From Desulfomonilaceae bacterium (GTDB lineage Bacteria; Desulfobacterota; Desulfomonilia; Desulfomonilales; Desulfomonilaceae), in assembly GCA_031082285.1 (NCBI GenBank), contig JAVHLK010000023.1, forward strand, positions 1 to 59,858: a stretch of 59,858 nt of DNA, written 5' to 3'. This document shows, one piece after another, positions 13,440 through 18,048 of this stretch (within the stretch, counting starts at the first letter, position 1; every line of letters starts with the position of its first letter). A program made the translations under genes and the position numbers. The notes below the pieces were generated by a model. That model was given only the letters and a program-made list of their open reading frames with translations, made no database searches and was not told where the DNA came from.

Positions 13440-14255
13440 TCACCGACGGTCCTCCGTTCCGAACAGCCGGGCGCCTTTCAGTACGGTACAGCTCTTTCCT
13501 GCGGATGAGTACTGTAAATGGTTGTTCCATTTCTTCAAGGGAACGTTTCCCGATTCAAAGCTCCGTTCCCAGTTGCCGTCCACTTCATCCCAGAAGTAAA
13601 TAACGAACGACAATCGTCCCCGGTTCCGGCTGTAGATTGCGAGAGTCCAGAGGTCGGTCATCGTGTCCCTGCAGATCCTCGCGGCGGTAGCGTCCGGGTG
13701 CTTGTTCAACGTGTCGATCGCACTATTCTTGATCGCCTTCTTGTATTCGGCATGATCGTGTTTCTTGAAAGGTTCGTCCTTTCGCTCCGAAGGGTCGTCG
13801 GCGGGCTCCTTTTGGGTCTCGTTCCCCGTTTCTTCCGGCCGCGGCGACTGTTCTTGTTTTTTGTCGGACTTCGAGCCGTCCGGGTCCTCGTCTTCGTCCG
13901 TGTCCTCCGTGCCGGCGGCCCGAACCCTGACAGACGGTCCCGGCCTCGAATCCGCGGCAATCTTGGGTTTCAGGAGGTCCTTGTCAGGTTGGCCGGCCTT
14001 TTTGGGTTCGGACGTACCTTTCGTGCCCCAGAGCGAAAACGAACAGCTCGTCAACAGGATGCAGAAAACCAGGACAATCCCTATGTCGGTCCAGTAGTGC
14101 AGGCGTGCCTGCCTGCGAGATTGACGGCGGGCATCCCGCGCAGAACGCGGGAGGGCGGGGCCAAGAAGTGTACCGGCACGGAGGCCGGTACCGGCAAAGG
14201 AGCGAAGTCTAGCGTAAATGCGAGACCGTAATTGGGAAAATGTGTACTTAGCCAT
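13440..14255 (-). CDS. Probable lipoprotein with a long charged linker, function unknown
   Basis: An open frame of 271 residues. Residues 57-72 form a hydrophobic helix ending in LLTSC, a lipobox-like sequence, after which comes a highly charged low-complexity linker (about 80-165, rich in Asp, Glu, Lys, Pro and Ser). A compact C-terminal domain of about 100 residues follows ('LWTLAIYSRNRGRLSFVIYFWDEVDGNW'). The stretch before the lipobox is unusually long and Arg-rich, and its DNA contains two perfect inverted repeats (14135-14151 and 14170-14191), so the annotated ATG at 14255 may not be original and a repeat may have displaced the native signal-peptide start. No ribosome site is evident at 14255. 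Family not recognised. The neighbouring gene on the same strand encodes another exported protein. Confidence 0.5.
   Translation of the reverse strand: MAKYTFSQLRSRIYARLRSFAGTGLRAGTLLGPALPRSARDARRQSRRQARLHYWTDIGIVLVFCILLTSCSFSLWGTKGTSEPKKAGQPDKDLLKPKIAADSRPGPSVRVRAAGTEDTDEDEDPDGSKSDKKQEQSPRPEETGNETQKEPADDPSERKDEPFKKHDHAEYKKAIKNSAIDTLNKHPDATAARICRDTMTDLWTLAIYSRNRGRLSFVIYFWDEVDGNWERSFESGNVPLKKWNNHLQYSSAGKSCTVLKGARLFGTEDRR
14135..14191. repeat. Pair of perfect inverted repeats inside a reading frame
   Basis: CCCGCG-CAGAA-CGCGGG (14135-14151) and GTACCGGC-ACGGAG-GCCGGTAC (14170-14191) lie within 60 bp. The first hairpin resembles the CCCGCG-AAA-CGCGGG hairpin at 50531. They look like a dispersed palindromic (REP-like) element. 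They overlap the N-terminal codons of the lipoprotein gene. Confidence 0.55.
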
Positions 14256-14787
14256 AGAGGAACCGTCTCGTCGACTGAGTCTCGCTGCTCACCGTTTCGC
14301 GCGACCGGCCGATACATTGGTGATATCCGTTTTCTGAAGAAAACGCAACAGATCCTTGGTTCGAGAATCCTTTACTGGAGCCCGTCACGCTGAGTCACCC
14401 GTCGCGGGATTGAGGTGATGCACGGCGAGTGCGGAGTACGGACGCGTTGCTCCCGGTTTCCGTGCGGGTACGTATCATTAGTCTTTTCCATGGGAGCGTC
14501 CTATGGTATGCAATTGATAGCCAACCGCGCACACCTCGGTTGGGAAAGAGTCGATTAAGGTCGACCGACGGCCTTCATAATTCGCCATGGCCTTGAAGAC
14601 GTGAATGACGGCCGACCACAATTGATCCGGAGGTAACGAGGTTCGTAAAATAATGTGTAGCTCTGTCCGAGTGGATTTGTCTGCGTAAGACGTGTTGAGC
14701 ACTTCGTCCTCAATGTCGCTTGACCGCCGGTATTCACCGGTAGGAACCTTCTCGTAAGAGACAATATCTCGGATCAGTCCGGTCAGT
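14256..14787. other. Divergent intergenic region upstream of pckG
   Basis: About 530 bp between the divergent lipoprotein gene and the pckG control region. A minus-strand frame (14478-14801, 107 codons from a GTG inside the palindrome) is open but has no recognisable similarity or ribosome site. It was not accepted as a gene. Confidence 0.35.
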
Positions 14788-14814
14788 CCTTGACCGTGCA
14801 CTGCACGGTCAAGG
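14788..14814. promoter_or_regulatory. 27-bp perfect palindrome upstream of pckG
   Basis: Left arm CCTTGACCGTGCA (14788-14800), one spacer base (14801) and right arm TGCACGGTCAAGG (14802-14814): 13 of 13 positions match. It lies 100 bp before the pckG ATG and 530 bp from the divergent gene. The symmetry and length fit a dimeric transcription-factor operator; it could also form a hairpin in RNA. The regulator is unknown. Confidence 0.6.
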
Positions 14815-14914
14815 GATTCAATGCGTTGAAATCGAACCTGGGACTCGTTGGTTTCCGGCGAGTGGGACCGTGGGATTCGCCGGCCGGCACATAGATTGAG
14901 ACAAGGGAGTTGTA

Positions 14915-16720
14915 ATGACCAAGAACAAGAAGCTTGCAGAGTTGGTGAACAGCACGGCGCAACTGTGTCGACCGGATCGCGTGCACTGGTGCGATGGGTC
15001 GGATGAGGAATATCGACTCATGCTCAGACTGATGGTCCATGGAGGCACGGCAATTCTCATGGACGGGAAACTGCGGCCCAACAGCGTCTTTGTGCGGTCG
15101 GATCCTGCAGATGTGGCGCGAGTGGAGGACCAAACGTACATCTGCTCGGAAAGACAAGAAGACTCCGGACCGACCAACAATTGGGTCGACCCGAAGGAAA
15201 TCAAGGCCGTTCTCACCAAGCTCTTCACGGGATCGATGCGAGGACGGACCATGTATGTCATTCCGTACAGCATGGGGCCCACGGGATCGCCCATTGCCAA
15301 GATAGGCGTTGAATTGACCGATTCGCCCTACGTGGTTGCAAACATGCACATCATGACGCGGGTTGGTACCGAAGTTCTCGACACCTTGGGCGACAACGGC
15401 GATTTCGTCACCGGTCTCCATTCCGTAGGCGCGCCTCTTCCGGACAACTCCTCTCCCGACGCCCCCTGGCCGTGCAACGCCGAGAACAAGTACATCTGCC
15501 ACTTTCCGGAAACTCGGGAGATCTGGTCGTTTGGTTCCGGGTACGGCGGCAATGCTCTGCTCGGCAAGAAATGCCATTCTCTTCGAATTGCGTCGGTACA
15601 GGCGCGCGATGAAGGTTGGCTCGCCGAGCACATGCTGATCCTCAAGTTCACCAGTCCCGAAGGGAGGGTGAGCTATATTACCGGTGCATTCCCATCGGCG
15701 TGCGGAAAGACCAATCTTGCCATGATGATTCCCACCGTGCCGGGATGGAAGGTCGAAACCATAGGAGACGACATTGCCTGGATGAAGTTCGGTGCCGACG
15801 GTCGCCTCTATGCGATCAATCCGGAAGCCGGATTCTTCGGAGTCGCCCCCGGTACGAGTATGAAGTCCAATGCGAACGCGATGCTCACCGTGAGTGAGAA
15901 TTCCATCTTCACCAACTGCGCCATAACCCCGGAGAATGACGTGTGGTGGGAAGGAATGACCGATGAGGAGCCGGCGGAACTGATCGACTGGTTGAGACGT
16001 CCCTGGCATCCGGGCTGTGGTCGGAACGCCGCGCATCCCAATGCTCGTTTCACGACGCCCGTGAGACAGTGCCCGGTAGCGGCCCCGGAGTGGGAGGATC
16101 CCAACGGAGTGCCCATAGATGCAATTCTCTTCGGCGGGCGACGTGCCGGCATCGTGCCTCTGGTGACCGAAGCGTTCGACTGGCAACACGGCACCTTCTT
16201 GGGAGCCTCCGCGAGCAGTGAAACCACCTCCGCGGCTGCAGGAAAGGTCGGAGAATTGCGCCGCGATCCCATGGCCATGCTCCCGTTCTGCGGGTACCAT
16301 ATGGGCGACTATCTGCGACACTGGCTGAACATAGGTTCCAATGGGAATGAGAAAAAGCTCCCAAAGATCTTCTACGTGAACTGGTTTCGCCGGAATTCCG
16401 CCGGCGATTTCCTCTGGCCGGGCTTCGGCGAGAACAGCCGGGTGCTGAAGTGGATCGTCGAACGGGTCGCCGGAGATGCGGAGGCCGTGGATACGCCGAT
16501 CGGGCGGTTGCCCGCACCGGGGTCGCTGGACCTGGGGGGGTTGGACATCGACCCGAAGGTGATGGATGAGCTCCTTCACGTCGACATTGAAGGGTGGCTG
16601 GAAGAAGTGCCGCTCATAGCGGAGTATTTTGACCAATTCGGGGATCGGCTTCCCGAAGGACTCAGGCACGAACTCAGCGCGATGGAAGAACGGTTGCGGT
16701 TGCTGAGAACAGAAGCCTAG
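14915..16720 (+). CDS. pckG: Phosphoenolpyruvate carboxykinase (GTP)
   Basis: A 601-residue protein of full family length. It converts oxaloacetate plus GTP to phosphoenolpyruvate, CO2 and GDP (or the reverse), linking the C4 dicarboxylates to gluconeogenesis. Diagnostic segments are the nucleotide-binding P loop [13 protein letters not shown] (about residues 262-274), the metal-site region '[32 protein letters not shown]', '[18 protein letters not shown]' and '[25 protein letters not shown]' near the C terminus, all typical of the GTP-dependent enzyme. The start is supported by AAGGGAG upstream of the ATG. It stands as a single gene behind a strong palindrome and is convergent with the methyltransferase gene downstream. 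Confidence 0.98.
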
Positions 16721-16786: not shown

Positions 16787-16818
16787 AAAAATGCCGCGGC
16801 GGTAATCATGCGCCGCGG
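16787..16818 (-). terminator. Rho-independent terminator of the methyltransferase gene
   Basis: On the minus strand CCGCGGCG (16811-16818 read in reverse) pairs perfectly with CGCCGCGG (16794-16801) around a 9-nt loop, and the hairpin is followed by CATTTTTC (U run at 16787-16791). The stem overlaps the methyltransferase stop codon. The hairpin could also slow transcripts arriving from pckG, but no U run follows on the plus strand. Confidence 0.75.
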
Positions 16819-17915
16819 GTGAACATCTCATAAACCGCGTCGGCTATTCGTGCCGCCAAGAGGGGAGGGACCGCATTCCCGATCTGCTTCGCCATCTCGA
16901 TCTTCGTCCCCTTGAATGCGAAGTCGTCCGGGAATGACTGGAATCTTGCGGCCTCTCGATGGGTTATGGGTCTGTGTTGCTCCGGATGGAGGTAACGGCC
17001 CTTCTCCGGCTTGAAGAACTCGGTTCGTATGGTGAAGGCGGGACGATTCCACCAGAGACGGCCAAACAGATCGGTACCTCCCGTTTTCTTTTTTATCCAG
17101 CACCCCGGTGTAAGTTCCAACGCTCTTTCCTGAAGGTCGAAGCGGTTCATCCCCTCTTCAGGTATTGCCCTGTATCTTGCGAGGCTCTTCGCAGTCGGAT
17201 TTCGACCGAAATGCAGGTCCAGTGGGCCGGATTCCTTTCGTATCTCGGTACCCTCCGGCGGAGGCAGGTCCCCGACGGCAGCCCTGACGGTGATCCATGG
17301 CAAGGGTTTTTTCACGTAAAGCGAACTCGTCGACTCGGGATCGTGTCCGTTGGACGGGTCGTAATGAGTCCTCCTGGGAGGAAAGAATCCGTTGGGATTC
17401 GCGAAGTTGCATCCAAGGAGAAAAGCCCTGTACCGAGTCTGAGGAACACCGTAGTCGGCGGCGCAGAGCTTCGCGGAAGCGACCCTGAATCCCATTGCTT
17501 TGGATTCGGTCACAATGGCCTCGTATTCGGGAGAGCCCAGGATCTGAGGTACGTTTTCCATGAGGAAACAGATAGCGCCGGCGCGGCGAACGATTTCAAG
17601 GAAAGGTCGCCAAAGCCGTTTCCTGGGGTCTCCTTTCCTCTCCCTGTTCAAGAGACTGAAGCCTTGGCACGGAGGCCCGCCGATGACGATCTCGGCCGGG
17701 GGAATTCGCGTGGTTGGGCTTGCCAACATCTCTACGATGTCTCCAACCTGACAATGGTTCCCGAAATTGGCATTGTAGGAGTCGGCGGCATACGTGTTGA
17801 CGTCGTTGGCCCACATCGACTTGAACGAACCCTTCGACAGACGCACAAAGCCCAAAGTCATTCCGCCGCAACCGGAGAACGCGTCTATGAGACGTATGGA
17901 GCGGTCGCTCGGCAT
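16806..17915 (-). CDS. DNA (cytosine-5-)-methyltransferase, orphan
   Basis: A 369-residue C5 methyltransferase that transfers a methyl group from SAM to cytosine in a specific DNA sequence. Motif I DAFSGCGGMTLGF, motif IV GGPPCQGFS with the catalytic Cys, motif VI MENVP, motif VIII QTRYRAFLLG, and motifs IX/X 'REAARFQSFPDDF...QIGNAVPPLLA' are all present. A variable target-recognition region lies between VIII and IX. The ATG at 17915 is chosen because GGAAGGAAGAG precedes it; the frame stays open for 38 more codons upstream (to 18029) without a ribosome site. No restriction endonuclease or Vsr-type gene is adjacent, so it looks solitary. It ends in a strong terminator and has a dispersed repeat just upstream, which fits horizontal acquisition. 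Confidence 0.95.
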   Translation of the reverse strand: MPSDRSIRLIDAFSGCGGMTLGFVRLSKGSFKSMWANDVNTYAADSYNANFGNHCQVGDIVEMLASPTTRIPPAEIVIGGPPCQGFSLLNRERKGDPRKRLWRPFLEIVRRAGAICFLMENVPQILGSPEYEAIVTESKAMGFRVASAKLCAADYGVPQTRYRAFLLGCNFANPNGFFPPRRTHYDPSNGHDPESTSSLYVKKPLPWITVRAAVGDLPPPEGTEIRKESGPLDLHFGRNPTAKSLARYRAIPEEGMNRFDLQERALELTPGCWIKKKTGGTDLFGRLWWNRPAFTIRTEFFKPEKGRYLHPEQHRPITHREAARFQSFPDDFAFKGTKIEMAKQIGNAVPPLLAARIADAVYEMFTRGA

Positions 17916-18048
17916 CTCTTCCTTCCTTCCTTTCCGCCGCCCGAAATGTTCGCGTGCCTCGTTGACATATATCGAGAAAGTCTTCACTGCAACCTCTTTT
18001 GCGGAATCCGCGTATGCATTCAGTTGCAAGCGGCCGTCGAACCAAGGG

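Follow-up and report, generated by a model that had tools for sequence, protein, structure and literature searches.

A perfect palindrome upstream of pckG in a Desulfomonilaceae bacterium, possibly a lineage-specific leader hairpin

Background

Whether a long and perfect palindrome shortly before a metabolic gene marks the operator of a regulon, a hairpin in the messenger RNA or neither is the question raised by the region upstream of pckG in a Desulfomonilaceae bacterium. The whole stretch of DNA analysed here, 59,858 nucleotides of one contig, is referred to as the window.

Stable 5'-leader hairpins without a U-tract act as mRNA stabilisers. Dyads upstream of the phosphoenolpyruvate carboxykinase (PEPCK) gene pckA are bound, or predicted to be bound, by regulators in other bacteria. 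According to a Pseudomonas study, the in vitro binding sites of RccR are a pseudo-palindrome of 28-29 bp upstream of pckA and related sequences at other targets, found in almost every Pseudomonas species (PMC5489143). A study of the Alphaproteobacteria describes PckR and GapR as LacI-family proteins, predicted by comparative genomics to control pckA among many genes, and gives LacI-type sites as 16-22 bp long and mostly even (PMC4052901). Judged by titles and the opening lines of abstracts, none of the papers found on PEPCK regulation and on Desulfomonile with PEPCK deals with the present region.

Results

Sequence, position and rarity of the palindrome

As seen in Table 1, the palindrome is composed of two arms around a single base and reads CCTTGACCGTGCA-C-TGCACGGTCAAGG, with arms that are 100% complementary. 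Its last base is 100 bp from the start codon of pckG, within the 659-bp divergent intergenic region upstream of this gene. The original prediction had described a 27-bp perfect palindrome 100 bp before pckG, in which one base separates two 13-nt arms, and its coordinates and sequence were exact.

Table 1. Coordinates of the palindrome and of neighbouring features in the window
Feature	Positions	Strand	Remarks
Perfect palindrome, 27 bp	14788-14814	none	As RNA, predicted 12-bp stem and 3-nt loop
Left arm of palindrome	14788-14800		13 nt; followed by 1-nt centre
Right arm of palindrome	14802-14814		13 nt
Inverted repeat CGGTCA-6-TGACCG	14779-14796		Overlaps the left arm
Best sigma-70-like promoter candidate for pckG, TTGATC-18-TAAAAT	14622-14651	+	Consensus match only
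pckG	14915-16720	+	GTP-dependent phosphoenolpyruvate carboxykinase, 601 aa; ATG at 14915; Pfam PF00821 (1.3e-170), PF17297 (2.3e-98)
Divergent neighbour	13440-14255	-	271-aa protein without Pfam match; homologues by pckG in relatives
Open reading frame starting in the palindrome	14478-14801	-	Probably not a gene
C-5 cytosine DNA methyltransferase gene	16806-18029		Convergent, directly after pckG; PF00145 (1.4e-51)

Symmetry of this length had also been called rare by chance, which holds against simulated sequence and to a lesser degree against the genome itself. A perfect inverted repeat with arms of at least 13 and a loop of 0-8 appeared in none of 20 first-order Markov copies of the window, and repeats with arms of at least 11 occurred at 0.15 per copy. 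However, a sample of 398 kb from the same genome (20 stretches) contained 8 perfect inverted repeats with arms of at least 11 and 3 with arms of at least 13. From this background, about 0.45 perfect hairpins with arms of at least 13 are expected per 60 kb. The three repeats of the sample have loops of 3, 4 and 6 and none has a loop of 0-1; where the loop is 1, the longest perfect inverted repeat of the sample reaches an arm length of 11. By the standard of its own genome, only the 1-nt centre of the palindrome is out of the ordinary.

The gene pckG has one match in its own genome. Homologues of the divergent neighbour adjoin pckG in 7 of the 29 loci of relatives, standing upstream and divergent in four (L003, L004, L006, L008) and downstream in three (L009, L011, L012). 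The methyltransferase gene behind pckG has no homologue in the pckG loci of relatives, whose flanks reach 1.5 kb only. The minus-strand open reading frame that starts in the palindrome, considered as a possible case of autoregulation, was set aside as probably not a gene. It has no Pfam match, a search of 20 relatives gave no convincing homologue (best E 0.09), and its third-position GC is 0.57 compared with 0.66-0.71 in five neighbouring genes.

Promoter candidates and the predicted leader fold

The best promoter candidate lies about 135 nt upstream of the palindrome and scores 10.3; over 30 mononucleotide shuffles, the mean score of the best site is 7.1 (sd 1.3). Compared with dinucleotide shuffles, one such site stands against 0.4 (sd 0.7), which is not significant. 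If this candidate is used, the palindrome would occupy roughly nucleotides 130-157 of a leader of about 257 nt. An alternative arrangement takes TTGACC of the left arm, which resembles a -35 box, with a spacer of 21 nt. It would place the palindrome within the promoter, as might suit an operator, and its score of 6.6 is no better than shuffles.

When folded as RNA, the sequence is predicted to form its stem and loop at -21.0 kcal/mol. The 158-nt stretch 14760-14917, palindrome included, has a fold z-score of -2.8 (matched by 1 of 300 shuffles; -2.6 in a separate fold calculation), and without the palindrome one of -0.2 (matched by 120 of 300). In these fold models, the stability of the leader is owed to the palindrome alone. 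The strong mRNA hairpin proposed at the outset, as one of two options, survives as a predicted structure, so that the original interpretation is partly supported. The other option, an operator for a dimeric regulator, is disfavoured in the form of a regulon site or an old operator by a palindrome that is single and without a counterpart in the relatives compared, as set out below.

The leader is also predicted to close onto the ribosome-binding region, independently of the palindrome. No translational role is apparent, because the predicted pairing of the ribosome-binding region is identical with and without the palindrome. Nor is the palindrome an intrinsic terminator or attenuator. Like these elements it is a stem-loop before a gene, but no U-tract stands beside the stem on either strand, and it was rejected as a terminator for this reason. 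The stem is followed by GATTCAATG, and intrinsic-terminator-like sites numbered 0 in 14250-15000. In 14200-15100, no Rfam covariance model matched with E<=1.

Ten relatives of the same family were compared for local hairpins near pckG. A z-score below -2.5 was obtained in 3 of the 10 (L004, L005, L009), whose stable hairpins lie within about 120 nt of pckG and have sequences unlike the palindrome. In four others (L006, L007, L008, L010) the best local hairpin was no better than shuffles, and the mean over all ten was -0.97. These folding results are suggestive at best of a leader hairpin that is kept by position among relatives.

Other elements were observed in these leaders. In L009 and L011, which belong to one genus, a promoter-like TTGACG-16-TACAAT or TAGAAT is directly followed by a GC(C/T)GGA...TTCCGGC repeat about 60 nt before pckG, the hairpin standing out from shuffles in L009 (z-score -2.67), and the best local fold of L011 not doing so (-0.54). 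The hairpin near pckG in L012 has a T run behind it and is possibly a terminator.

Comparison with relatives

Of the 41 genomes searched, own genome included, 30 gave a pckG match. The closest relatives compared are of the same family at best, and their pckG is 71-81% identical. The palindrome core was sought in up to 500 nt before pckG in 28 relatives (L003-L031 without L013). L013 was left out here and in the local-hairpin comparison because its pckG match begins at residue 88, so that the preceding DNA is coding. Three less certain cases were kept in the counts: L010, whose upstream sequence appears by eye to be the end of another gene; L007, with an uncertain start codon; and L011, with 267 nt upstream only.

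No counterpart of the palindrome was found upstream of pckG in the 28 relatives. The best core matches had 8-11 of 22 mismatches, similar to the 7-12 of 22 given by 300 shuffles. Conservation upstream of pckG, which the original prediction had named as a check, is therefore missing among these relatives, which are of the same family at best. The palindrome is absent even from L003, L004, L006 and L008, four same-family regions that appear orthologous because the homologue of the divergent neighbour stands divergently there; this speaks against an operator.

Searched as DNA in 20 relatives, the 659-bp region gave nothing alignable; all matches were short, about 17-42 nt, with a best E of 0.014. 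Three of these short matches, of 17, 20 and 26 nt (G010, G020), touch the palindrome. A mismatch-tolerant scan for inverted repeats over 420 nt upstream of pckG in 29 relatives, L001 not being counted, found none with the sequence in the window. Inverted repeats of other sequence were present in 10 of the 29 (L007, L015-L017, L020, L023, L024, L026-L028), most of which belong to the other family of the class. Among these second-family relatives, L024, L028 and L020 carry long inverted repeats upstream of pckG; an example of 45 nt lies at -221 to -177 in L024.

In 42 genomes of the class, two other core matches were found at up to 3 mismatches, each with 3 (G020, G041); that of G020 lies on C34 and its pckG on C52. 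Across 395 genomes of the phylum (own genome included), one other match at up to 2 mismatches was found, in G048, reading TTGTCCGTGCACTGCACGGACAA with paired changes. Because its position is within a YhcG/DUF1016 nuclease gene, it was rejected as a second upstream palindrome. In another family of the phylum, a YhcG/DUF1016 nuclease coding sequence contains CAATTGTCCGTGCACTGCACGGACAATTG, a perfect palindrome of 29 bp (L113:1498-1526).

Second copies and the possibility of an operator

A single, lineage-specific operator, at which a putative dimeric transcription factor would control pckG only, is a less likely explanation than a hairpin, in spite of the perfect odd dyad that speaks for it. The original prediction had pointed to a second genomic copy as a check. 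None exists at up to 3 of 22 mismatches: the 23-bp core finds only itself in the 5.6-Mb genome, and no further site of a regulon operator was seen at this limit. When up to 3 mismatches are allowed, the inner 19 bp occur at 4 other sites, compared with 2 for a reversed control.

Counts for the outer arms favour an operator, with 77 genome sites at up to 3 of 16 mismatches (itself included) against 39 for the reversed control. In a 458-kb sample, which is the 398-kb genome sample plus the window, they gave 7 sites against a mean of 2.65 for permuted arms, and 8 of 135 permutations reached 7. However, at looser limits the counts for inner or full arms did not stand out from those of permuted arms (reached by 30 of 149 and 34 of 150 permutations).

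A still larger excess was seen for TTGACCG-N9-CGGTCAA. At up to 2 mismatches it has 73 genome sites (itself included) against 10 for the reversed control, and the 458-kb sample contains 12 sites, a count reached by 0 of 128 permutations of the arms, whose mean is 2.1. When the gap was varied from 0 to 30, multiples of three gave 5, 8, 12, 12, 9, 10, 7, 5, 8, 12 and 7 sites, and other gaps 0-6. The excess is attributed to codon phase because counts rise at most gaps that are multiples of three. The other sites of the sample lie inside open frames of at least 120 aa in 9 of 11 cases. The same is true of 11 of the 14 sites centred in L032-L045, a subset of the 73 that overlaps the 11 sample sites, open frames being counted by length. 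A regulon signalled by this excess was therefore rejected.

The RccR, PckR and GapR sites resemble the palindrome as inverted repeats upstream of a PEPCK gene, which favours an operator. They differ in that they are common to several central-carbon genes and kept across species, whereas the palindrome is single and was not found in relatives; their PEPCK gene is pckA, whereas pckG encodes the GTP enzyme; and LacI-type sites of 16-22 bp, mostly even, are a poor fit to an odd 27-bp dyad (PMC5489143, PMC4052901). Judged by sequence comparison, the missing second copy and the missing counterpart appear to weigh against a regulon or an old operator.

Possible absence of function or mobile origin

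The palindrome could instead be a functionless by-product of intergenic turnover, such as an imperfect repeat completed by template switching, which is held to be about as unlikely as a private operator. The CGGTCA/TGACCG units directly beside the palindrome would suit such an origin, as would the lack of a second copy and of a counterpart in the genomes searched, and a ribosome-site pairing prediction that the palindrome does not affect. On the other hand, perfect 13-nt arms are far beyond random expectation, and a palindrome under no selection is expected to decay.

It is highly improbable that the palindrome is what remains of a mobile palindromic repeat of the kind seen next to tRNA genes in a Clostridia metagenome-assembled genome (MAG). 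In the GTDB collection, scanned possibly without the genome of the window, the 20-base core had two exact matches, one in a Streptomyces coding sequence and one beside tRNA-Leu in this Clostridia MAG. The MAG carries the identical 23-bp core TTGACCGTGCACTGCACGGTCAA (L047/L090) within a repeat of about 110-140 bp that occurs three times there, twice with the arms changed in a paired manner to TGTA/TACA; these points favour mobility. Nevertheless, agreement between two palindromes needs only about 10-11 nt to coincide, 257 billion bases were searched, the only other core match lies in coding sequence, and the own genome contains no further long copy of the upstream region. The shared core is treated as a coincidence between palindromes because nothing outside it resembles the window by eye.

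The Clostridia repeat was observed at L090:132-154 (the same as L047), L091:1501-1523 and L092:272-294, with cores in TGCA/TGCA or TGTA/TACA form; two of the three copies are near tRNA-Leu genes, and the edge of the repeat resembles a tRNA 3' end.

A phage or plasmid origin was rejected, with no significant DNA match (best E 0.3 for plasmids, 4 for phages); viral contigs contain no exact copy of the 19-bp core, and a looser pattern matched in four of them, where the sequence looks coding-like by eye.

Discussion

The palindrome is best explained, with a probability of roughly 0.45, as a lineage-specific inverted repeat that is most likely transcribed as a leader hairpin of local or no effect. 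Transcription of pckG would start upstream, at the candidate in Table 1, and yield a leader of roughly 260 nt in which the palindrome would form a short, strong hairpin. Any effect would probably be local; for example, the stable stem might slow decay of the leader or hinder its processing. The palindrome would not be an intrinsic terminator, nor would it serve several genes of a regulon.

The leader hairpin fits somewhat better than an operator, because the palindrome accounts for the predicted fold stability of the leader and the best promoter-like site lies upstream of it. The absence of a second copy and of a counterpart in the relatives searched suggests that the hairpin is ordinary and specific to its lineage, as opposed to a control site of several genes. 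The recurrence of other long perfect hairpins in the 398-kb sample supports a hairpin as well. Counting against it, a centre of 1 nt is more in keeping with a DNA dyad than with the loop of an RNA hairpin. As a predicted hairpin, the element resembles U-tract-less mRNA stabilisers of 5' leaders in having a strong stem before the start codon, no T run and a predicted leader stability that depends on the stem. It differs from them in its unusual 1-nt centre.

A broader proposal, regarded as improbable though less so than a mobile origin, is that a stable hairpin is retained between the promoter and the start codon of pckG in this group, while its sequence turns over freely. If this were true, the palindrome would be an extreme case of a sequence-independent signal for mRNA stability or processing at the entry gene of gluconeogenesis.

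These findings imply that perfect palindromes in front of metabolic genes are not necessarily operators of a regulon. They also indicate that codon phase can mimic genome-wide enrichment of a half-site, and that this genome holds other long perfect hairpins. If the palindrome does act as a leader hairpin, it would point to control of PEPCK at the mRNA level in this group of Desulfobacterota.
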